From contig QIAH01000400.1 of the NCBI GenBank assembly GCA_003225465.1, positions 1-33,926 on the forward strand: a stretch of DNA of 33,926 nt, read 5' to 3'. Below the pieces are notes generated by a model, which saw only the letters and a list, made by a program, of their open reading frames with translations, had not been told where the DNA came from and ran no database searches. This DNA comes from Acidobacteriota bacterium (GTDB taxonomy: Bacteria; Acidobacteriota; Terriglobia; Terriglobales; Acidobacteriaceae). This document shows positions 3,846-15,215 of this stretch, piece after piece. The translations under genes and the position numbers were made by a program. Numbering within the stretch: the stretch's first letter is position 1; every line of letters begins with the position of its first letter.

Positions 3846-4118
3846 TCACCGGCGTTGATCTTGAATAAACTGATGGACGTCTTCTTCACGAAACTTCCAC
3901 AAGCCCTTTCCTTTTGCCGGGCCAAGTTTTATCGCGAACAGCTGCGGTTGTCGGCGACCTGAAGCGTGGTCCCGTATCCATCCTTTGCTGACTCCAAGCC
4001 ATTCGGCCACATCACTGACGTCGAGCAAACGCTTGGGTTTGGCGAAAAATGGAGGCCGCTCCAGGAGTTCGAGGGATGGAGATCTATGCGGTTCGGCTGG
4101 TCTTGGTAGAGTGGCCAT
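3846..4118 (-). CDS. Excisionase-like helix-turn-helix DNA-binding protein
   Basis: A 90-residue protein whose second half is a MerR/excisionase-type winged HTH: RLLDVSDVAEWLGVSKGWIR forms the HTH (about residues 30-49), followed by a basic loop and KGLWKFREEDVHQFIQ, the wing and last helix typical of the HTH_17 class. A Shine-Dalgarno-like AAGGAAG lies nine bases before the ATG. Proteins of this kind act as recombination directionality factors or small regulators in mobile elements. Its place next to a broken integrase fits that, but the chromosomal side of the tRNA is ambiguous. The first 30 residues are proline-rich and show no domain. Confidence 0.7.
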   Translation of the reverse strand: MATLPRPAEPHRSPSLELLERPPFFAKPKRLLDVSDVAEWLGVSKGWIRDHASGRRQPQLFAIKLGPAKGKGLWKFREEDVHQFIQDQRR

Positions 4119-4445
4119 GGACGTAGTCTTCCTTGCGGAGCCTCAAGTTCGATCTTCAGGGGCCGCTTTCGAATGAGGCGTACCACGCCAGAAGGCAAAG
4201 AGTCGACAGCGGGGCTGGTTCCGCGAGTCCTGTTTAAACCGGAAATAGCTTCCAGTCAAACGCGCGCATCGCAACGGGCAGTCAATTCCAGATATAGCGA
4301 GGCGACAGGCGACGATAATTCCCGTATGTACATGGTCTTAGCCTCCGCCATAATCCGGCGCCCGGTGAGTGAAGAGTGTAACCACCCAAAGTGCACTCGG
4401 CCAAAAGAAGTCTCAAGGGGAAATAAAGAATGTTCTGACAGAGGG
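4119..4445. other. Non-coding stretch, no gene recognised
   Basis: Short open frames exist here (for example 4173-4478 on the plus strand), but they have no ribosome-binding site, no domain and an unnatural composition. I see no repeat or RNA gene. The segment separates the HTH gene from the PAS remnant and is probably eroded DNA of the integration region. Confidence 0.4.
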
Positions 4446-4800
4446 TCAGTTTACCCTCTGCTGGTCGTACTCAGGTAAGTCTTCTGACACGGCAAGGATA
4501 CAGGACTGACCGTCGAATTGAATTCTGTCTGCGGAATAAGCCGTCAGCTTGATCTCACCGGACTTGGTGCGAAAGCCGGGTGATCACGTTCTGAATCGGA
4601 CCACCTCGCTGGAGTTGTTCGATCATGAGCACCCGGTCCGCCGGGTCTTCCCAAATTCAGTTCGTGGACAGTGTGGCCAAGCACTTCTTCGCGCGCATAG
4701 CCGTAGCGCCGCTCAAAGGCAGCATTCACGTCCACGAACCGTCTTTCCTTCAGAGTCGTGATGGAGAACGGAATTGGGCTGGCGGCAGCGTTCGGCACCG
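4446..4800 (-). pseudogene. PAS-domain fragment, frameshifted
   Basis: Reading minus from about 4800, NAAASPIPFSITTL, RRFVDVNAAFERRYGY and REEVLGHTVHELN form the first half of a PAS sensor domain. After HELN the frame shifts: EDPADRVLMIEQLQRGG and IQNVITR appear in a second frame. After a TGA the third segment, FRTKSGEIKLTAYSADRI then SCILAVSEDLPEYDQQR, follows in another frame to a TGA at 4446-4448. Together they make one normal PAS fold (about 115 residues) needing two frame changes, near 4647 and 4572. No output domain is attached, so this is a remnant of a larger signalling protein. Its 5' edge abuts the secreted-protein remnant at 4834. Confidence 0.75.
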
Positions 4801-4833
4801 TAATTCTCCTTGGTACGGGGTTCTTGGTTCGTG

Positions 4834-5019
4834 CGCGTCGGCAACGTTGTACTTCTGCACCGACGAGCCGACCTGGAAGCTGATCTCACTCTCGGTACCA
4901 CCCATGAACTTGCCCTTAATCAGGCTGCCATTCTTTAGTTCCAAGGAATCGGCCCACGCAATCGACGCCATCAACTACAGCCCAATGACCACTCCGCAAT
5001 TCAACCTGAACTTCCTCAT
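4834..5019 (-). pseudogene. N-terminal remnant of a secreted KNGSLIKGKF-type protein
   Basis: A good Shine-Dalgarno (GGAGGAGA) precedes ATG at 5019. The frame gives a signal peptide, MRKFRLNCGVVIGL then a TAG stop at codon 15 (probably CAG originally), then LMASIAWA, a plausible cleavage site. The mature start DSLELKNGSLIKGKF, MGGTESEISF and VGSSVQKYNVAD follows, a pattern I associate with periplasmic/secreted proteins of Acidobacteria. Homology-like sequence ends at about 4834 and is followed by unrelated codons and then the PAS fragment. The gene is thus stopped and truncated. Confidence 0.6.
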
Positions 5020-5387
5020 GACTTCTCCTCCGCAACCTTCTGCTTGCTCCCCTATGTTTTATGCGAATTCTACGTCGCGATTGGTTGACGTTATTGGGAA
5101 GTTGAGGAGGCCCGCAGGGCTTCTGGTTGCTTAACCACCAATGTGAAACCTGGCCGATCCTCAGTCCCCCAACTGGTGCCGTCCCCCAATCGAACCCCGA
5201 AAGTCAGGTCTCGGGTAGTCCGCCAGAAGGCTATCAAGAAAGTTGGTGGTGGCCGGAAGGGCGTCTCTCCGAATGGAGATTTCGCCAGGACCCCCATAAA
5301 TTCCTCCGTTGCGTCACCGCACGGCGTTGCCAGACCAAAATCCAGCCCCGCTCGGCTCCAGTGATTCCAACTTCGGGTGTTTCAAAC
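5020..5387. other. Non-coding stretch, no gene recognised
   Basis: Several overlapping short frames occur on both strands, but none has a ribosome-binding site with a recognisable protein. No tRNA, repeat or terminator was found. Confidence 0.35.
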
Positions 5388-5675
5388 CTATTGCAGCGTG
5401 CTAGCCACGCTGGAAAACGCACTATTGGCATTTGAGCCGATCAGGCTCAGAGTGCCAACAACGACCACCAGAATCACCGCCAACATGATTGCGTATTCAG
5501 CGATGTCCTGGCCTTGTTCCTCTGACCATAGCCCGTATAACAAGGCTAGCCATACTGTTCTCCGGACGATGATTTTACGTCGGGTTGGTTCGGCTTTCTC
5601 CTTCCGTCGCTTGCGGCTTCCTGGAGTGTTTGGGACTGCTAGCCGGAAATTCTTTGCTGCAGTCAGACACAGCAT
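5388..5675 (-). CDS. Flp/Fap-type IVb pilin
   Basis: The C-terminal 45 residues are diagnostic of an Flp pilin: SEEQG, then QDIAEYAIMLAVILVVVVG, then SLIGSNANSAFSSVASTLQ. The prepilin peptidase site should be after the glycine of EEQG, leaving glutamate at position 5 of the mature pilin followed by tyrosine, and a single hydrophobic helix. Flp pilins polymerise into tad-type surface fibres. The 95-residue frame has about 50 basic residues' worth of leader, much longer than the usual 15-20, so the real start is probably internal, for example a TTG just before LYGLWSEEQG. No tad assembly genes are in the window, so this is an orphan pilin gene. Confidence 0.75.
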   Translation of the reverse strand: MLCLTAAKNFRLAVPNTPGSRKRRKEKAEPTRRKIIVRRTVWLALLYGLWSEEQGQDIAEYAIMLAVILVVVVGTLSLIGSNANSAFSSVASTLQ

Positions 5676-5823
5676 GCGCCGCCAAGTCCTCCAGAAACTG
5701 AGCGGCGGTTTCGGATTGATCCGTGGTTTCTCCGGAATCCCGGATCAATTTCCGCGAAGCACGTTTCATCGGACGTGCCCGGCATGCCGGGCTATCTACA
5801 GGAAAACCCGGATGCCACTGTAA

Positions 5824-6266
5824 GGGTTTTCGAGGAAGGTCATACAGTGTGCGCCGTACCGTTCCATCACCGTCTTTAATAATTCCGACGGGAAACCTCA
5901 GCGAAGGAACCTAAAATTCTTTAGTTTCGCGAACCAGGGCTCTTGAGGGTCCTCCCTCCCGACCAATTCATCCTTTTATTGATACATAGACTCAGAGCTT
6001 CTACCGCCGCGTTATTCCGCGAGAAAACTAGCCGCGGCAGACAACCCTAGTACCATTCCCAGCATCTTTGCGACGCCAACTGCCCTGCACATAGTCGGAT
6101 GTTACCCGCGATCGGTTGCGCAAAATTAACTTGCTTTCTTATCGCTTCATACACAAACGGGCATATTTCATTTCCCTGGGAACGAGTTGTTTTGAACCTA
6201 TTCCACATCCACTTGGCGTAGTTACAGCTGCGCTTCGCAGTCAAGCGACAGCATTAAGGAGAAGCG
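5824..6266. other. Long intergenic leader before the secreted propeller gene
   Basis: No gene is supported in these 443 bp. The only clear signal is the ribosome-binding site AAGGAGAAGCG immediately before the ATG at 6267. The promoter of the 780-residue gene must lie here or further upstream, but I cannot place it with confidence. Confidence 0.4.
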
Positions 6267-8609
6267 ATGAAAAAAATTCTGATGTTGTCCTTCTGGGGAG
6301 CACTATTGCTGGTTAGCGTGGCTCCTCTCGCCGCTCAGAATAGCGTTGATGTTTTGAATAGCGGACCACAGCCCGCGAACACCGCAGGCTGCGCCGTTAA
6401 CCCGCAATGCATTCCGGCGGTCTGGTCCACGACCTCCAACGCGGGCACCGACATTAGCGCGGCGATAACCGCGAACTTCGTTTTCGATACAAATGGCGGG
6501 GCTTTGCCTACCGACTTTCCACCCGCGACGAGCGGAAAAATCTGCCTGGCCGATACTCGCGATCTCACCGGCACCACGCTGTTCGGCCAAATAGCCGCGA
6601 ACTGTCAGGTGGCGGGGGGCGTCGCCCTCCTGCTCATACGCGACAGTGGAGTCACCGCCCCATCGGCTATACCGGTGTTTGTCATATCTACGGCCAACGG
6701 GGACTTTCTGCGCAGTAATGTCGGATTTAGCACGACGACCGGCGTCTCCAATTACCCGGTCCGAATCAATGTGGCTGTGAACGTTCCCCCCGCCAACCCC
6801 ACTGGCCAGCACAACTGCCCCAACGGCCAGGCGGCTGCAGCATACGTTGGTCCGGGAACCGCAAATTACACGCCGAATGAGAGTCTATGTCTGCCCGCGG
6901 GAGCAGGCCAGGCGGTCGAGCCCAGCATGACCGTGGACTCGCAGGGCAACATCTACGTTGAGTCCATCCGCGGAGTCCCCGGCGGTCTCGACCTGTGGCG
7001 CTGGTATAAAACTGCCGATGGCGGGCCGAACGCTGACGGGACCCTCCCGTTCAAGTACGAAGGCCAGCCCGATTGCGGCATGTTCGTAACCCCGTTTTGC
7101 AGTGAGAGTGGATTTGCGCCGGGAGGAGGCGATGGCGACGTCGCTGTGAATGCTCCGGACCCCTCGAACGCGAACATTCCCAATCTAGCTGTGGTCAGCC
7201 TTAGCGCAGCGGAAGTTACAGGCAGCCACTCCACCAACCGTGCGGATACCTTCAGCACCCCGAATCCGGCCACCACCGGCGTGCCCTTCGACGATCGCAT
7301 GTGGGTCGATGGCTTCAACGATACCTCGCACGTCTACATGGAGTACCACGATTTTGGGACTACGTCCCAAATCTTCGTGCAACGCTCAAGCGATGGCGGC
7401 GAGACCTATAGCGGCGCCTTGGGTGTCGCAATTGACGCTGCGACCGAGCCTAGCGTCGGCCCGCCTTCCGGCAATATCGCAGGACAGATCAAGGTGGACA
7501 ACAGCAGTTGTTCCAGCCACGGCAATCTGTACCAGATCTTTGTGGGTCCAGACAATCCCGTGGACAACTCCAATAACAGCAGCGCCTTCTTCAACGCTGC
7601 TTACGTGGGCGTGGCTACAGGCGTAACTGTTACAAGTCCCGCGCTAACCTTCACCGACTACAAGATTTTCAGTTGTGGTGCTGGTTCCACGTGTCCTTCG
7701 GGGGCCGGTCTCGGCAACCTGTTCCCCGCGCTCGCGGTGGACAACTTCGGGTACGTGTACGCCACTTGGTCGGATAACACTGACGTCTATTACTCGTACT
7801 CGACCACTCTCGGGACGCGCTGGTCTCCGGCCATCAAGGTGACCCGGAACTCGTCCCAAGCCGGAAAGTCGAACGTCTTCCCCTGGATCGCTGCTGATGC
7901 CAACGGGCATGTGGCCGTTGCGTGGTATGGCGCCGATCAAGCCGGGAACTCGAACTCAGTTCCGGCGACCAGCACGCACTGGAACGTGTTCGTTGCCGAG
8001 AGCGTCAATGGTCATGCGATGTCACCGGCTTTCACGGTGAGCCAAGCCACCGACCACTCCAACCACACGGGGCAGATCTCAACCGGCGGTCTGACGGGCG
8101 CCTCCGACCGGAGCCTTGCCGACTTCTTCCAGATTGGGATTGACCCGAACCACCTCATCAACATTGCCTATGCAGATAACCATGCCGGTCCGTCTGTTAC
8201 GTACTTCACGCGGCAGAAGACGGCAACCGGCGGCATCTCTACCAAAGGCAAGTGTGCCGGCACCTCCCACGAAGCTGGCGGCAACGGTCACGTAAACGGC
8301 AAGCATGGCGGCCAGGCTCAGTTCAGCTTCAACTATGACGGGTCTGACCAACAAGCTGGAAGCGCGTCTTTCAGCGATTCCGGCTCAGGCGTCAATTTTC
8401 AATCCACGCAGATCACTGGAGCTACCTTTGATGAGGTCGCGCACACCGTGACCCTGACTGGATCTGGGACTGACAACGGCTCGCCGGTAACGTTCACGAT
8501 TGTCGCTGCCGACAGCTCGCTGGCGCCTCCAGGACTGTTTAGCATCACGCTCAACGATGGGTACAACGACCGTGGCAACCTGCTGGATGGAAGCATTACT
8601 GTCTACTAA
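6267..8609 (+). CDS. Large secreted sialidase-fold (BNR-like) protein
   Basis: A 780-residue exported protein. Residues 1-24 are a signal peptide (MKKILMLSFWGALLLVSV, cleavage after APLAAQ). The centre contains repeated short blades such as EPSMTVDSQGNIYVE, IFVQRSSDGGETYSG, FPALAVDNFGYVYATWSDN and FPWIAADANGHVAVAWYG. These match the Ser/Asp-box (BNR) style of six-bladed sialidase-like propellers. Active-site residues for sialidase activity cannot be identified, so a catalytic role is not claimed. The last 110 residues (from about HEAGGNGHVNG) form a separate beta-rich domain, FSFNYDG ... VNFQSTQITGATFD ... GLFSITLNDGYNDRG, resembling the post-COAP-1 type of C-terminal domain. Start and ribosome-binding site are strong, and a terminator follows at 8630. 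It appears to be a single-gene transcript, probably extracellular or surface-bound. Confidence 0.8.
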   Translation: MKKILMLSFWGALLLVSVAPLAAQNSVDVLNSGPQPANTAGCAVNPQCIPAVWSTTSNAGTDISAAITANFVFDTNGGALPTDFPPATSGKICLADTRDLTGTTLFGQIAANCQVAGGVALLLIRDSGVTAPSAIPVFVISTANGDFLRSNVGFSTTTGVSNYPVRINVAVNVPPANPTGQHNCPNGQAAAAYVGPGTANYTPNESLCLPAGAGQAVEPSMTVDSQGNIYVESIRGVPGGLDLWRWYKTADGGPNADGTLPFKYEGQPDCGMFVTPFCSESGFAPGGGDGDVAVNAPDPSNANIPNLAVVSLSAAEVTGSHSTNRADTFSTPNPATTGVPFDDRMWVDGFNDTSHVYMEYHDFGTTSQIFVQRSSDGGETYSGALGVAIDAATEPSVGPPSGNIAGQIKVDNSSCSSHGNLYQIFVGPDNPVDNSNNSSAFFNAAYVGVATGVTVTSPALTFTDYKIFSCGAGSTCPSGAGLGNLFPALAVDNFGYVYATWSDNTDVYYSYSTTLGTRWSPAIKVTRNSSQAGKSNVFPWIAADANGHVAVAWYGADQAGNSNSVPATSTHWNVFVAESVNGHAMSPAFTVSQATDHSNHTGQISTGGLTGASDRSLADFFQIGIDPNHLINIAYADNHAGPSVTYFTRQKTATGGISTKGKCAGTSHEAGGNGHVNGKHGGQAQFSFNYDGSDQQAGSASFSDSGSGVNFQSTQITGATFDEVAHTVTLTGSGTDNGSPVTFTIVAADSSLAPPGLFSITLNDGYNDRGNLLDGSITVY

Positions 8610-8629
8610 TAAAGGGAGATTCGACAACG

Positions 8630-8666
8630 CTGCGAGGCCGGCTCATATCCGGTCTCGCAGTTTTTT
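8630..8666 (+). terminator. Rho-independent terminator of the secreted propeller gene
   Basis: The stem CTGCGAGGCCGG/CCGGTCTCGCAG (one bulge or mismatch) has loop CTCATAT and is directly followed by six T residues at 8661-8666. It lies 20 bases after the stop codon. Confidence 0.9.
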
Positions 8667-8796
8667 GATTCGGAGAATTCCCGCTACCTCCGAGCTGTTC
8701 TTTTAGTGGCATTGAGAACCCTCGCGTCAAAAAATCCCGCAGTTGGGCGTTGCGGTTTAGGACCAGGGCGTCGGAGGGAGAGCGCCTTTTGGGGAG

Positions 8797-9447
8797 TCAG
8801 AAATTGCAGTGCCGCATCGCTCCGCGTCCGAATGTGGGCCCCAAACTGGAGACCGTGGGAGCGTGTCAAACTCGCGCCTGAGTTTCGAGATAGCAGACCC
8901 CCAGGCTGCGCATGGATTTGCCGACCAGATAATTGAATTCGTTAGTGTCGGTGCAACCGCCAATCCAAGCGATCCCTTCGCATCGGTTGAGCGTGCGACC
9001 GTGTATGTCTCTTTCGACGAAAGTCTCATCCCGCGTTTTCTTTACCCAGTGCGCAATCTCATCAATCGCCTGTTCCCACGCAATATCTTCCCAGTGATCC
9101 GAGCCGGGGCGGCGAACCTGCGGCTTCAAGAGCCGACGCGTGTTCAGGATGTCCTGCTCGAGTGAGGCTCCCTTCGGGCATAGCGTGCCGCGGTTGATGG
9201 GATGGTCGGGGTCGCCTTCGACGTGGATGACCTGGGGCGTTACATTCTTGGCTTTATCGCCAATGGTGTAAATGATGACGCCACAACTCACCGAACAGTA
9301 CGGACAGGTGGAACGCGTCTCCGTCGCTCGCGCAATCTTGAGTTCGCGCAGCTGGGCGTAGGCCGGCGCGAGATCAAACCCGAACAGCGACATGGCCACG
9401 CCTCCCAGCGTGGTCGCCTTCAGAAAACTTCTCCTGGTACCGTCCAT
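8797..9447 (-). pseudogene. Formate dehydrogenase-N/O alpha subunit, selenocysteine-containing, truncated
   Basis: The start is ATG at 9447, giving a twin-arginine signal (MDGTRRSFLKATTLGG ... PAYA). A [4Fe-4S] motif CPYCSVSC and LCPKGASLEQD follow, as in FdnG/FdoG molybdo- or tungsto-enzymes that oxidise formate in the periplasm. The frame meets TGA at 8866-8868 exactly where FdnG has selenocysteine: LETQARV-U-HAPTV, continuing SSLGPTFGRGAM. The bases just after TGA can form GGTCTC/GGGGCC around CAGTTT, a plausible bacterial SECIS hairpin. After GRGAM similarity stops and a TGA follows four codons later (8797-8799). About 800 residues, including most of the molybdopterin domains, are missing, and no beta or gamma subunit follows. 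Regulatory element A lies upstream. Conceptual start at 9489 is less likely because the Tat motif would be displaced. Confidence 0.85.
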
Positions 9448-9576
9448 GGGTCTGACCTTCCTTTTGCGGCAATAGGCGGAGTCATGCAATCAAAGAGTGT
9501 ACGCAGCCCGCGCGGTATTTCAGACGCAGGGTTCCCGAACTGACCGGTGGATGCTAACCGTGGGAGAAGGTCTTCA

Positions 9577-9658
9577 ACAATCCGTCGTGAGATTGAAGGG
9601 CGATTCGGAGCCTACGTCTATGGCGGAGTCCACCTTGCGTGGTAGGTAGCTATACTGC
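9577..9658 (-). promoter_or_regulatory. Element A of the 82-bp GTCGTA-N70-AATTGT family
   Basis: On the minus strand column 1 is at 9658 and column 82 at 9577. It has GCAGTA in place of GTCGTA, preceded by GAA, and GATTGT in place of AATTGT, 76 bp apart as in the six other copies. It also has C at column 20, TA at columns 39-40, T at column 50 and TCTCACGACG before the last motif. It ends 130 bp upstream of the formate dehydrogenase start and points toward it. Confidence 0.7.
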
Positions 9659-10025
9659 TTCGGCAGTAGGACAGGCAGCGGGCACTCTGATCAGAATTGT
9701 TTGGTACGATCTTCAAGAGCCACGCTCGGAATTTGAGACTTCTTGCCATGATAATGTCGTTTTGTGCTTCCGGGTGTTGCGAAAGTACCTGCAGCATCTC
9801 GCGCTGCAATTCAGGGTCCCCGGCTATTCTCGCAAAAAAGCCGCTCCAGGCTTTCGGATTCTGCTCAAGGTGCTGAAAGATGTTCCTCCTGTGGTCGCGC
9901 CTTTGAGTGGAACAACCGGGAAATGCTCCAGCAACGTGACGGCCTGTGCCAGCAGCTCCGCGATCTTGCGTTTGCCAAATGGGTCGAACCAGGCAACGCA
10001 AGCTGGTCTTGAGAGCTGCTTGCAA
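9618..10025 (-). pseudogene. Frameshifted relative of the small helical protein at 28779
   Basis: Two minus-strand frames together resemble the intact gene at 28779. The upstream frame reads WFDPFGKRKIAELLAQ then LLEHFPVVPLKGAT. After a shift near 9890 the downstream frame reads RRNIFQHLEQNPKAW, FFARIAGDPELQREM and LQVLSQHPEAQNDIIM. The intact gene has HFPIVSLRDPTT, IRRIIRKLEREPKLR and KEILTILAKHPTAL in the same order. The repeated pattern of a short helix ending in a (D/N/H)P turn suggests helical-hairpin repeats. The end of this frame overlaps element A. Function is unknown; the frameshift could be real or a sequence error. Confidence 0.5.
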
Positions 10026-10050
10026 TTGGCGCGGTACCTCTAGAGCTAGA

Positions 10051-10132
10051 GTCGTATAAGGACCTCTGACCAGGAGCGTACCCGGCGTTACGCGCCTTCT
10101 CTGAAGCGGATTTCATTCTCACGATGAATTGT
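10051..10132 (+). promoter_or_regulatory. Element B of the 82-bp GTCGTA-N70-AATTGT family
   Basis: GTCGTATAAG starts at 10051 and AATTGT at 10127, with the conserved CTGAC at columns 16-20, TA at columns 39-40 and TTCATTCTCACGATG before AATTGT. It ends 31 bp before the first possible start of the FecR/DUF6600 gene, in the same orientation. Confidence 0.75.
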
Positions 10133-10163
10133 TGTAGGTGTCGGCAGTCACTAGCATCGGAAT

Positions 10164-12047
10164 GTGGGAGGCATTCGAGAAAATCCCACAGCGGTCGTGA
10201 TGGGCCGGCACGCGCGAATGGTTATGCAACATAAGATCAAATCCCAAAGACTGCGGGGCTGGCGGTTGGTGGTGTTTGTGTCGCTGCTGTTGGCTCGTCC
10301 ATCGTGGTGCCTCCCAGCACAAGCTTCTCCCTCCAGCCAAGAGAACGTGCCAGCAAGCGATCCGCCCGCCCGAGTCGCTCGCATCAGCCAGCTAAAGGGA
10401 AAGGTTTCGTTCTTGCGGGCCGGCGTGGATCAATGGAGTGAAGCAGCACTCAACTTTCCGGCAACGACGGGCGATCGCATCTACACCGACAACGGAGCCA
10501 GGGCGGAACTCGAGGTCGGGCCTTACACGATCCGGTTGTGGGAAAAGACGGACGTGACCATAACCAATCTGAACGACCAGATCCTGCAGCTTGGACTGGA
10601 CCAAGGCAAACTCCGCATCAGCGTCTCCCAATTGCCTTCCGGCAATACGGTCGAAGTTGACACGCCCAATGGAGCTCTCACGCTTCTCGCTGCGGGTAAG
10701 TACCGCATTGATTCCGACGCTACGCGCAACCGCACGGTCGTGAGCGTGAGCAGCGGTAATCTGGAAGTCACCGGTGGAGGAGTTTCGCAGATAGTAAACA
10801 CTGGTCAGGCTGTCGAACTCACGGGTCAAGACCCACTCCAGGTCAATTCTGTCACCATGCCTGCTCTTGACGACTTCGATATTTGGAGCGAGGAGCGCGA
10901 CCAGCGTCTGGCATCTTCTACTTCCGCAAAATACGTGAGCCCTTCTACTCCGGGCTACGAGGATCTGGACACCTACGGGCACTGGTCGGTAGTCGCTGAG
11001 TACGGGCCCATTTGGTATCCGGTTGTGCCCGCCGGCTGGGTGCCATACCGCTTCGGTCACTGGGTATGGATTGACCCCTGGGGCTGGACCTGGGTGGAAG
11101 ACGAACCGTGGGGCTTTTGCCCATTTCACTATGGCCGGTGGGTGTTCATTGGAGCTGCTTGGGGGTGGCTACCAGGACCGTTCGTTGCGACGCCAGTCTA
11201 TGCTCCGGCTCTGGTTGCATTTCTGGGAGGCCCGAGCTTCTCGGTCGGCATCGGCGTCGGTTTGGTGGGTTGGTTCCCGCTAGGGCCCGGAGAACCTTAC
11301 TTTCCCTGGTATCACCACAGCGGACGTTATCTGAACGAGGTCAACGTCACCAACATCCGGAACGTGACCAATATCACGAACATCACGAACGTTACGAACA
11401 TCAACAATGTTCACTACGCATATCGAACCATCGCAACCACAGCGGTGCCGAGGGACGTTCTTAGTAGTGGACAGCCAGTGGCTCACCAGGTGGTCCGAAT
11501 CAGTGCCCAACAACTCGCGGGGGCGGAGATTACTCCACATCCGACAGTCAACCCAACGAAACATGCCGCGGTGCCCGGAAAGCCCGTACCTCCTCCTCCG
11601 GTGCGGGCCCAGCACCTGATTGCCGCGAACAGAACCTCCCAAGTTGCCGGAAGACCGGCCCCGCCTGGAAGTCGGCAGCCGAACCCACTGGTAACCAGAG
11701 ATACGCAGCCAGAAGGAAACGCAAAACGGCCTCTTCCCCCTCCGCCAAGTGGAAGAACACCGTCTTCATCCCGGGAGCCTAGTAGTCCGCCACGAGCGAT
11801 ACCGCCGAGACTGACTACGAGGACTGCGCCACCGCCCCCGACGATACCCTTTGAGCAAAGGCGTCCCGCTATGTCGGAGCATCCGGGCCGCCCGCTTGAA
11901 CCGCCACAACTCGAAGACCTGCGAGTTGGAAGAGCGGTCGGCCCGATGCACGACAGGGAATTTCCCCCGCATGTGGCGCCGGTTATTCCCGAGAGACCAG
12001 TTCCGGTCCCAGCAAGACCGAGATTCTCTCAAATGAAACCCAAGTAA
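10164..12047 (+). CDS. FecR-domain / DUF6600 exported protein
   Basis: A protein of up to 627 residues. A hydrophobic stretch at residues 33-48 (RLVVFVSLLLARPSW) is a signal peptide or anchor. Residues about 70-230 form a FecR-like beta-roll (GDRIYTDNGARAELEVG, NTVEVDTPNGALTLLAAGKY). Residues about 270-345 are rich in Trp/Tyr/Pro/Gly (YGHWSVVAEYGPIWYP, GHWVWIDPWGWTWVEDEPWG, YGRWVFIG), the DUF6600 (YXWV) signature. Residues 391-416 are a run of NVTNI-type repeats. The last 160 residues are proline-rich and probably disordered. FecR proteins normally couple outer-membrane signals to sigma factors, but here there is no TonB partner and the role is unknown. Starts at 10200 or 10218 would give a more usual signal-peptide length; none has a good Shine-Dalgarno. 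Element B is immediately upstream. Confidence 0.8.
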   Translation: MGGIRENPTAVVMGRHARMVMQHKIKSQRLRGWRLVVFVSLLLARPSWCLPAQASPSSQENVPASDPPARVARISQLKGKVSFLRAGVDQWSEAALNFPATTGDRIYTDNGARAELEVGPYTIRLWEKTDVTITNLNDQILQLGLDQGKLRISVSQLPSGNTVEVDTPNGALTLLAAGKYRIDSDATRNRTVVSVSSGNLEVTGGGVSQIVNTGQAVELTGQDPLQVNSVTMPALDDFDIWSEERDQRLASSTSAKYVSPSTPGYEDLDTYGHWSVVAEYGPIWYPVVPAGWVPYRFGHWVWIDPWGWTWVEDEPWGFCPFHYGRWVFIGAAWGWLPGPFVATPVYAPALVAFLGGPSFSVGIGVGLVGWFPLGPGEPYFPWYHHSGRYLNEVNVTNIRNVTNITNITNVTNINNVHYAYRTIATTAVPRDVLSSGQPVAHQVVRISAQQLAGAEITPHPTVNPTKHAAVPGKPVPPPPVRAQHLIAANRTSQVAGRPAPPGSRQPNPLVTRDTQPEGNAKRPLPPPPSGRTPSSSREPSSPPRAIPPRLTTRTAPPPPTIPFEQRRPAMSEHPGRPLEPPQLEDLRVGRAVGPMHDREFPPHVAPVIPERPVPVPARPRFSQMKPK

Positions 12048-12988: not shown

Positions 12989-15215
12989 TCAATAATTGGG
13001 ACGATTTTCACGTTCCAACAAGTATCGTCGGAGCCGGTGTATCACCATGTCGCCTTTACCCTCGGAAATCTCTTGCTCCACTTCTTTCAACGCAAAATAG
13101 ACGACGTCGTGGTGATGCAAGTCGTGGCCATCCAGCTTCTGACTCAGTTCGCGCCAAAGATTGTGCAGTAGCTCAATCTCGCGGGGTGTGAGGTGGGGCG
13201 CGTGCGGCCCCAGATAGAAGAAATGCTTTTCTCCCGAATGAGAATAGATCTCCAGAGCCATCCTGGGTCGAGGCTGCGGCAGTCGCTCCCACGCCAGACC
13301 AATCAAGCGAGCTTGTTGATTGATCGACAATTTTGAAGACTTTCCCAATACCACCGTGCGCGACTGGAGACTAGCCGCAGCACGAACGATTCCGTCCCAG
13401 AGATTATTGGCCTCGACAACCGCCAATCGAACCTGTTTACCTTCTTTTTCAGCCAGGGCGACGACTTTGGTGAAGAGCACCTGCTCGATTGCGGTGAACA
13501 GCTGATCGGGAGCCAACTCGTGTTCGCCAGATGAAGCTCGTCTAACCACCCGCATGTGCAGCACAACCACGTCCTGTCGTTCCACGTTTGCCTGCCTAAG
13601 GACGAACTCCAGATGCCAAAGCGCGTGATGGTTGCCGACGCAAACCAGGAGGCCACCAGGTCGGCAGCCCACCGCCGCTGGGGAAAGATCGGATTGCTGA
13701 GTCAGCTGAAACTGGTCGCCATGGGTCCGGAGAAGGCCGTGTTTTTGTGTGAACCTTTCCGAGGCGGTAAAGACCAGGAATAGAAACGCGGAGAAGCTGA
13801 TGCCGGAAATAGTGGCCACTGGCTTCGTAAGGAGATTCGTGGCGGCGATTGCAAGAAGAGCCAGGGTAATGGTTCCCAAACCCAAGGGAATCTCAGTTCC
13901 GTGAAATCTGAAGTTGAGAGGAACCCGAAATTCACGGGGCCCTGGTCTTTTGAAACGAAGTACCAGCACTCCCAGGCTTTTGAGCACAAAACTCCAGAGA
14001 ACGCCGAAGGCATAGGCCTCACCCAGTACATACACATTTCCGCGACTAAGAAAAATCGCAAGGAGCTGGAGAACCGCTACCACATTGATGATCCGGTAAG
14101 TTGTGCCAAACCGCGAATGTGGATGACGGAACCAGTCGGGCAGAACGCCATCTTCCGAGACCCGATTCAAGACCCCATTGGTTCCAACCATGGACGTATT
14201 CACAGCACCGGACAAGATCAAGACTCCGACGAGGACAACAAAGAGATGAAAGACTATCTTCAGTGAGTGCGGACCGGCAACGTACATGGTCAGCCCAGCG
14301 ATGAGGTTGTCAAAGAACGCCGTCCGCATCTGGTCGGGAATAATCATGACCGCAAAGAATGAGACGAGAGAGGTGAATACCAGGCTGTAAGACCAGCTTG
14401 GGGTGCTCGATTTCGCGGTAGACCTGGGCCAGGGTCTCCTCCCCGCTCATGGCCAGTACGGAATGACCGAGACCTATGAGAATTCCTAGGACTCCAATGG
14501 TCGGCAGCCGGCTACCCCGCAGCCAGCCCAGCGCTTCCGGAGAGAAGTGCAGGTTTTGGGGGAGCGGCCAGGGAGGCAAGTGCGCTCCTCGAACAACGAG
14601 AGTATAGGAGCACCACGCGATCAGAAGTGCCACCATGGCGGTGGTGATATACATGATGCGGAGCGCTTTTTCGCTGCTCTCCGGAATGCCCTTGATGTTG
14701 ACCCACCAAAAGTACACAGTCACGAGAGCAGCGAAGGAGGCGGCCGCAAAATCTCTCGACAGGTGCACGTCAAGCCGTGCATAGCGAAATAGCTCATTCA
14801 AAAACCCGACAAGGTACTGGCCTGCCGACACGCCACTTATCGGCCCAGTGCGGACGTAATCAAACAGTAGTGCTGAGACCGAGATCTTGGCCATGGTGAC
14901 GCCCATGGCCTCTTTCACGACCCGGTACACGCCGCCACGGACGAACATGCCGCAACTCTCGATGTAGACCGACCGCACAGCATACGACAGCAGCATAACC
15001 GCCAGAATGAACCAGGGCGCGGCCTTCCCCACGGCTTGCTCAGCGATGCCGCCCGCATAGTAGGCCGAGGACGCCAGATCGTTCAAAACGATCGCGGCTG
15101 CACGCCAAAACGAAATGAAGGTGAGCATAGCTGTGGTCACCACCACGACCTGTGGGAGGTGACTATTAACGCTCTCGCCAGTCTTTCTTGCGGGTGTGAG
15201 CACTATGCGCTCCAT
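12989..15215 (-). pseudogene. APC-family permease with C-terminal USP-like domain, disrupted by a small deletion
   Basis: Two minus-strand frames form one gene. Frame 1 (15215 to about 14370) is the N-terminal half of an amino acid/polyamine permease: VVVVTTAMLTFISFWRAAAI, AYYAGGIAEQAVG, then membrane helices up to SGEETLAQVYREIEHPKL. Frame 2 resumes with YSLVFTSLVSFFAVMIIPDQ and carries the remaining helices, then a cytosolic domain (LLVCVGNHHALWHLEF ... RTVVLGKSS ... INQQARLIG) resembling universal stress proteins. Between HPKL and YSLVF only a few bases remain, whereas the family has about a dozen residues there, so a short non-triplet deletion near 14380 seems to have shifted the frame. 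Frame 2 could start at ATG 14347, but the product would lack half the transporter. Substrate unknown. It converges with the gene at 12401. Confidence 0.75.

Follow-up and report, generated by a model that had tools for sequence, protein, structure and literature searches.

How does a gene for a selenocysteine-containing formate dehydrogenase come to stop shortly after its UGA codon, far from any contig end? The window in which we followed this question comprises 33,926 nucleotides and corresponds to the whole of contig C579. The draft genome to which it belongs has 590 contigs and a total of 6.15 Mb, with completeness estimated at 95 % and contamination at 2 %. Among named genomes, its closest relatives are MAGs that carry the label Acidobacteria and kin.

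Anatomy of the fragment and its UGA codon

The fragment starts with the ATG at 9447-9445 (N-terminus MDGTRRSFLK), and 22 codons separate its UGA (8868-8866) from the terminating TGA (8799-8797). A preliminary description had placed a TGA within a QARV-U motif, followed by a real stop, and the coordinates proved correct, with the gene on the minus strand (Table 1). The 216-residue product matched positions 3-213 of the 1009 positions of TIGR01553 (E 2e-82, 277.4 bits), which is below the curated cut-off of 814.2 bits and marks it as a fragment of a family member, not a whole member. The matches to TIGR01553, TIGR01409 and PF04879 mean that this reading is not due to chance. The Tat signal was found in place, as previously described, together with the N-terminal Fe4S4 domain of formate dehydrogenase-N alpha, and the molybdopterin domain is merely begun (PF00384 positions 1-86 of 353, 19.4 bits, cut-off 24). 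The fragment thus shares with the selenocysteine FdnG of TIGR01553 the Tat signal, the Fe4S4 domain, the QARV-U-H.PTV motif, the UGA and SECIS_3, but it ends soon after the UGA and about 80 % of the protein is absent.

Table 1. Coordinates of the features of the truncated gene and its surroundings in the window
Feature	Position	Strand	Remarks
Truncated fdnG-like gene (formate dehydrogenase-N alpha)	8797..9447	-	216 sense codons including Sec, then TGA
Tat (twin-arginine) signal	9379..9438	-	residues 4-23, TIGR01409
Molybdopterin oxidoreductase Fe4S4 domain	9151..9321	-	residues 43-99, PF04879
Sec UGA, codon 194	8866..8868	-	motif QARV-U-HAPTVSSLGPTFGRGAM
SECIS_3 (RF01989)	8813..8871	-	full-length match, 59.6 bits, gathering 63
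Break point, similarity with longer homologs ends at 8815	8814..8815	.	after Met of FGRGAM
In-frame TGA terminating the fragment	8797..8799	-	without homology or SECIS match
Stretch without convincing relative	8686..8814	.	between left block (G015-like up to 8685) and break
Terminator-like hairpin after converging 780-aa gene 6267-8609 (+)	8629..8661	+	one found versus 0.9 expected by chance
PAS-domain protein gene relic	9708..10013	-	residues 208-312 of the sister's open 318-aa frame; out-of-frame stretch

The Rfam search placed SECIS_3 at the UGA, with all positions of the model matched (1-59 of 59, E 6e-13). The score is under the gathering threshold but falls within the range of five longer homologs that likewise score below it (57.1-60.2), including the complete copy of the same genome; the last two positions of the match lie beyond the break. 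In one comparison TGA occupied the Sec codon in all 14 loci (13 in relatives, one in the genome itself), and all 14 read on beyond the break, as far as shown. The ARV-U motif keeps the UGA in 78 of 80 named loci; of the two exceptions, L121 ends earlier and L119 lacks roughly residues 184-237, including the Sec codon. Single-sequence folding of the region after the UGA gave a result no better than that of shuffled sequences (z 0.35 and 0.67), and the SECIS assignment therefore rests on the covariance model. Judged from the sequence, with the SECIS_3 match and the retention of UGA in relatives, the UGA of the fragment is a true Sec codon, as the preliminary description had held.

A G to A change after Sec-His (HAPTV) was considered as a sign of decay and rejected, as it is also present in the otherwise intact L133 (1054 aa). 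Two other loci deserve mention. The acidobacterial fdnG L119 (QIBC01000210.1, ~5001-8115) continues in another frame after its gap, which may be a deletion or an assembly error and affects the same region as the break in the window. The congener G001 carries a distant formate dehydrogenase (L192, contig C334, ~3931-6850) that has UGA in frame where Sec is expected and is 43 % identical over the main stretch to the complete copy of our genome (C577); it also has frame breaks and an internal TAG.

The break point and its surroundings

The previously noted end of similarity after the UGA lies at 8815. All 14 fdnG matches in one DNA comparison start there (the count omits the window itself and weak short matches). 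In another comparison 79 alignments were counted, and 73 begin at exactly this base; in a third, with a match of any kind in 118 of 398 family genomes, most but not all strong matches stop at 8815. Among the 80 named loci, 63 read at least 1000 aa, L139 among them, which reaches the contig end at 1004 aa. Eleven shorter loci run off their contigs (L121, L131, L132, L155, L163, L168, L172, L176, L183, L185 and L188), five have a broken frame, the remaining part being present in a different one (L110, L119, L162, L169 and L186), and one is masked (L114). Loss of the C-terminal part in the middle of a contig is visible in none of the 80. The nearest long relatives of the fragment are L109 (89.2 % identical) and G030 (87.3 %), and trees place it with L109, G012C1, G030 and L110.

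At E<=1 the genome contains no repeat of 8610-8814, and a mobile element at the break was rejected on this ground. A similarity of 8739-8784 to G045 (81 %, E 8e-4; elsewhere 30 bases at 90 %) was judged to be chance. GC and tetranucleotide composition fail to distinguish the sequence left of the break from that right of it, a weak test that is blind to a join within the genome. The regulatory element proposed upstream of the gene was not confirmed: Rfam searches at E<=1 over 8600-10200 yielded SECIS alone, with no riboswitch or other known RNA upstream. Conservation with some relatives does extend over about 16-21 bases preceding the ATG.

On the upstream side, the window could be compared with contig JAIQFZ010000147.1 (L121/L189) of the sister genome G150, where the order is a DUF6600 gene, about 1.7 kb of extra sequence, the PAS gene and the start of fdnG. 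The DUF6600 gene shows 91 % DNA identity between the two, and the upstream block 9440-10018 is common to both at 86 %. At window 10018-10037, about 1.7 kb of the sister sequence is missing, which in the sister comprises the larger part of the PAS gene and a gene for a holin-X-like membrane protein. What remains of the PAS gene in the window is partly out of frame, with four gap openings in 419 bases. Further upstream, an AA_permease_2 amino-acid permease gene (12989-15215, minus strand) is split into overlapping frames 14310-15215 and 12989-14347, by a frameshift from decay or by a sequencing error.

The sister contig ends inside fdnG at about window position 8897. Identity to it within the gene is ~95 % up to ~9185 and ~75 % beyond. 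When each segment was given its own tree, the window kept its place beside L109, G012C1, G030 and L110 (clade support 75 and 84). The first segment of the sister is paired with that of the window (UFBoot 100), and the second segment of the sister (last ~300 bases) groups with L186/L124 of gp3/Bryobacteraceae (UFBoot 98-99); in the tree of the whole fragment, window and sister are still paired (97). As its two segments group differently, the sister sequence is recombinant or chimeric there. G150 has a complete fdnG elsewhere. A profile search of G150 recovered no orphan C-terminal fdnG piece, which fits truncation or missing sequence.

On the other side of the break, the 780-aa gene has DNA relatives in G015 (82 %), G012 (79 %) and partly G001 (83 %), and G150 gives only short weak matches to 5300-8815. 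This gene was not seen beside fdnG in G015, G012, G001 or G150; G012 has it and both its fdnG copies on different contigs, and G015 is without an fdnG match. Since the sequences left and right of 8686-8814 are unseen together elsewhere, a rearrangement and a false join fit alike.

The fragment itself shows no decay. Its dN/dS against ten other loci over codons 85-207 is 0.037-0.111, compared with 0.030-0.188 among those ten, although these ratios are rough because synonymous distances often approach or exceed 1; the value against the sister (0.098) was set aside over the last ~300 bases because of their other ancestry. Across the first 84 codons, fragment and sister differ by nine silent and one replacement codon differences. 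The fragment has three clade-unique residues, and the six members of the clade have 3-8 each against the other five. Thus neither dN/dS nor clade-unique residues revealed relaxed selection or damage beyond the break in the fragment, which leaves room only for a very recent break or for no break at all. It follows that the gene was under selection until very recently, or that it is still intact in the cell. The 'recent' deletion of the preliminary description was right in direction, the fragment lacking a decay signature; the same lack of decay would also follow from an assembly join.

Paralogs and selenocysteine machinery in the genome

A TIGR01553 search of the genome gave 11 matches, three of which are C577, C190 and the fragment in the window; the other eight are weaker and lie on other contigs. 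C577 carries a complete selenocysteine FdnG with one TGA (1339 bits). C190 carries a C-terminal fdnG-like part (profile positions 600-1009) that sits right at the contig end; from the genome as a whole, the same search recovered no further orphan C-terminal part. The preliminary description had allowed for a rearranged locus with the rest of the gene elsewhere. C190 was considered as this missing half and rejected, as it belongs to another paralog clade: its closest relatives are L181, L164 and L143 (about 90 %), and the 12 best relatives of the fragment rank only 21-62 of 68 for C190.

The lineage was also expected to possess Sec machinery. In agreement with this, we found selA on C495 (TIGR00474, 543.6 bits) and selB on C158 (TIGR00475, 376.4 bits), beside the complete UGA-containing fdnG. 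The expectation holds less well for selC, of which only the 3′ half was found, from anticodon loop to CCA (C114:1084-1153); neither ARAGORN nor Rfam calls a tRNA there. RF01852 gave 11 matches in the genome, of which the best is a tRNA-Ser and the four checked are three Ser and one Leu; with 150 of 821 candidates scored, an intact selC was not found in the assembly. In relatives, where eight best loci were fetched, all five checked are tRNA-Sec. The congener G001 (69 % complete) has no good RF01852 match (best E 1.6e-6). In an Epsilonproteobacteria study (PMC4607533), the part considered here describes selC as easily overlooked in annotations.

The selC half on C114 (L203/L207) shares 80 % identity with an intact selC from a relative; where the 5′ half should be, the sequence is unrelated. 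It looks like an attachment site that an integrating element left behind, or a broken selC. An HNH endonuclease ORF lies at 586-873 of this 4-kb contig, and no integrase was recognised on it by eye.

Probable origin of the truncation and its meaning

We favour, at a probability of roughly 0.55, the explanation that a redundant formate dehydrogenase-N alpha gene was truncated very recently by deletion or rearrangement. On this reading, a bacterium related to uncultured Acidobacteria retains the 5′ fifth of a spare Sec-containing gene. The rest of the gene would have been lost very recently through a deletion or rearrangement, one end of which lies at 8815, in a locus already in decay, and the loss would have been tolerable because a complete paralog exists elsewhere in the genome. 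Besides that paralog, the absence of a matching remainder in the assembly and the broken PAS and permease neighbours support this explanation; the mid-contig position, the uniform composition (weak test) and the lack of a repeat at the join also count for it. Against it, formate dehydrogenase genes often lie at draft contig ends (e.g. C190, G150:C166 and G012:C1). The junction is seen in no second genome, the sister contig stopping before it, and the absence of the left block from the sister beyond short weak matches fits a rearrangement and a false join to the same degree. With the Tat signal, the Fe4S4 domain, the UGA and the SECIS in place, transcription and Sec insertion could still be possible. 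The predicted product would be missing almost the whole of its molybdopterin-binding domains and is expected to have no activity. We infer both the biological event and the inactivity of the product.

A false contig join at 8815, with the real gene complete and its 3′ part unassembled or dropped, is a less probable but serious alternative, as it would also leave a fragment without decay. The genome is a draft in many contigs, the stretch 8686-8814 has no convincing relative, and the sister lacks the left block beyond short weak matches. The sister contig moreover ends in the same gene with chimera-like last ~300 bases (UFBoot 98), and 12 of the 80 named loci run off their contigs within the gene (the 11 shorter loci named above, plus L139). 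However, the break is 8.8 kb and 25 kb from the contig ends, composition is uniform by the weak test mentioned, 8610-8814 is not repeated in other parts of the genome (E<=1), and two neighbouring genes (PAS and permease) are broken too.

The remaining alternatives are far less probable. A small functional selenoprotein derived from FdnG, a Tat-exported Fe4S4 module with a single Sec near its C-terminus and maintained by selection, would explain the signature of purifying selection, the well-scoring SECIS and a break only two bases short of the end of the SECIS match. A very recent break gives the same signature, though, the short form is absent from the loci examined (the 14 and the 80 named), and the last residues, RHCNF, lie beyond all homology. 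We know of no lone Fe4S4 module that works without cofactor domains, and we regard such a protein as highly unlikely. Least credible is one gene that a rearrangement split, leaving its start in the window and its C-terminal half on C190. The fdnG-like gene of C190 does lack its N-terminal part (profile 600-1009 is present) and lies at the contig end, and apart from the window fragment the assembly yielded no orphan N-terminus of the TIGR01553 family. Yet C190 is nearest to L181, L164 and L143 and the fragment to L109 and G030, trees put the latter with L109/G012C1/G030/L110, C190 is cut by its own contig end, and profile positions 214-599 would be left unaccounted for.

A recent truncation can be set beside what has been reported on selenoprotein evolution. 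The part of the survey in Genome Biol. 2006;7:R94 (PMC1794560) considered here describes selenoprotein gain and loss as being in balance, with two FdhA loss events in its Table 1. As in those losses, one selenoprotein gene would be lost in a lineage; unlike them, a complete paralog is kept here, and a half-deleted gene is not described in that part of the survey. As a complete paralog remains, the Sec trait need not be affected. In the Epsilonproteobacteria study (PMC4607533), most of the 40 additional selenoprotein genes that it found were 5′- or 3′-truncated as deposited. Losing one copy while keeping a complete one is in line with the picture given by the two studies.

The fragment is most likely ordinary and not a new kind of system, and neither a real break nor a join alters what is known of selenocysteine use. 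If the contig was falsely joined, formate dehydrogenase paralogs would be sites where metagenome assemblies break or misjoin. If the truncation is real, gene callers would annotate the fragment as a short protein terminating at the UGA, and the locus would be a further case of the loss of a spare selenoprotein gene, caught ahead of point mutations.
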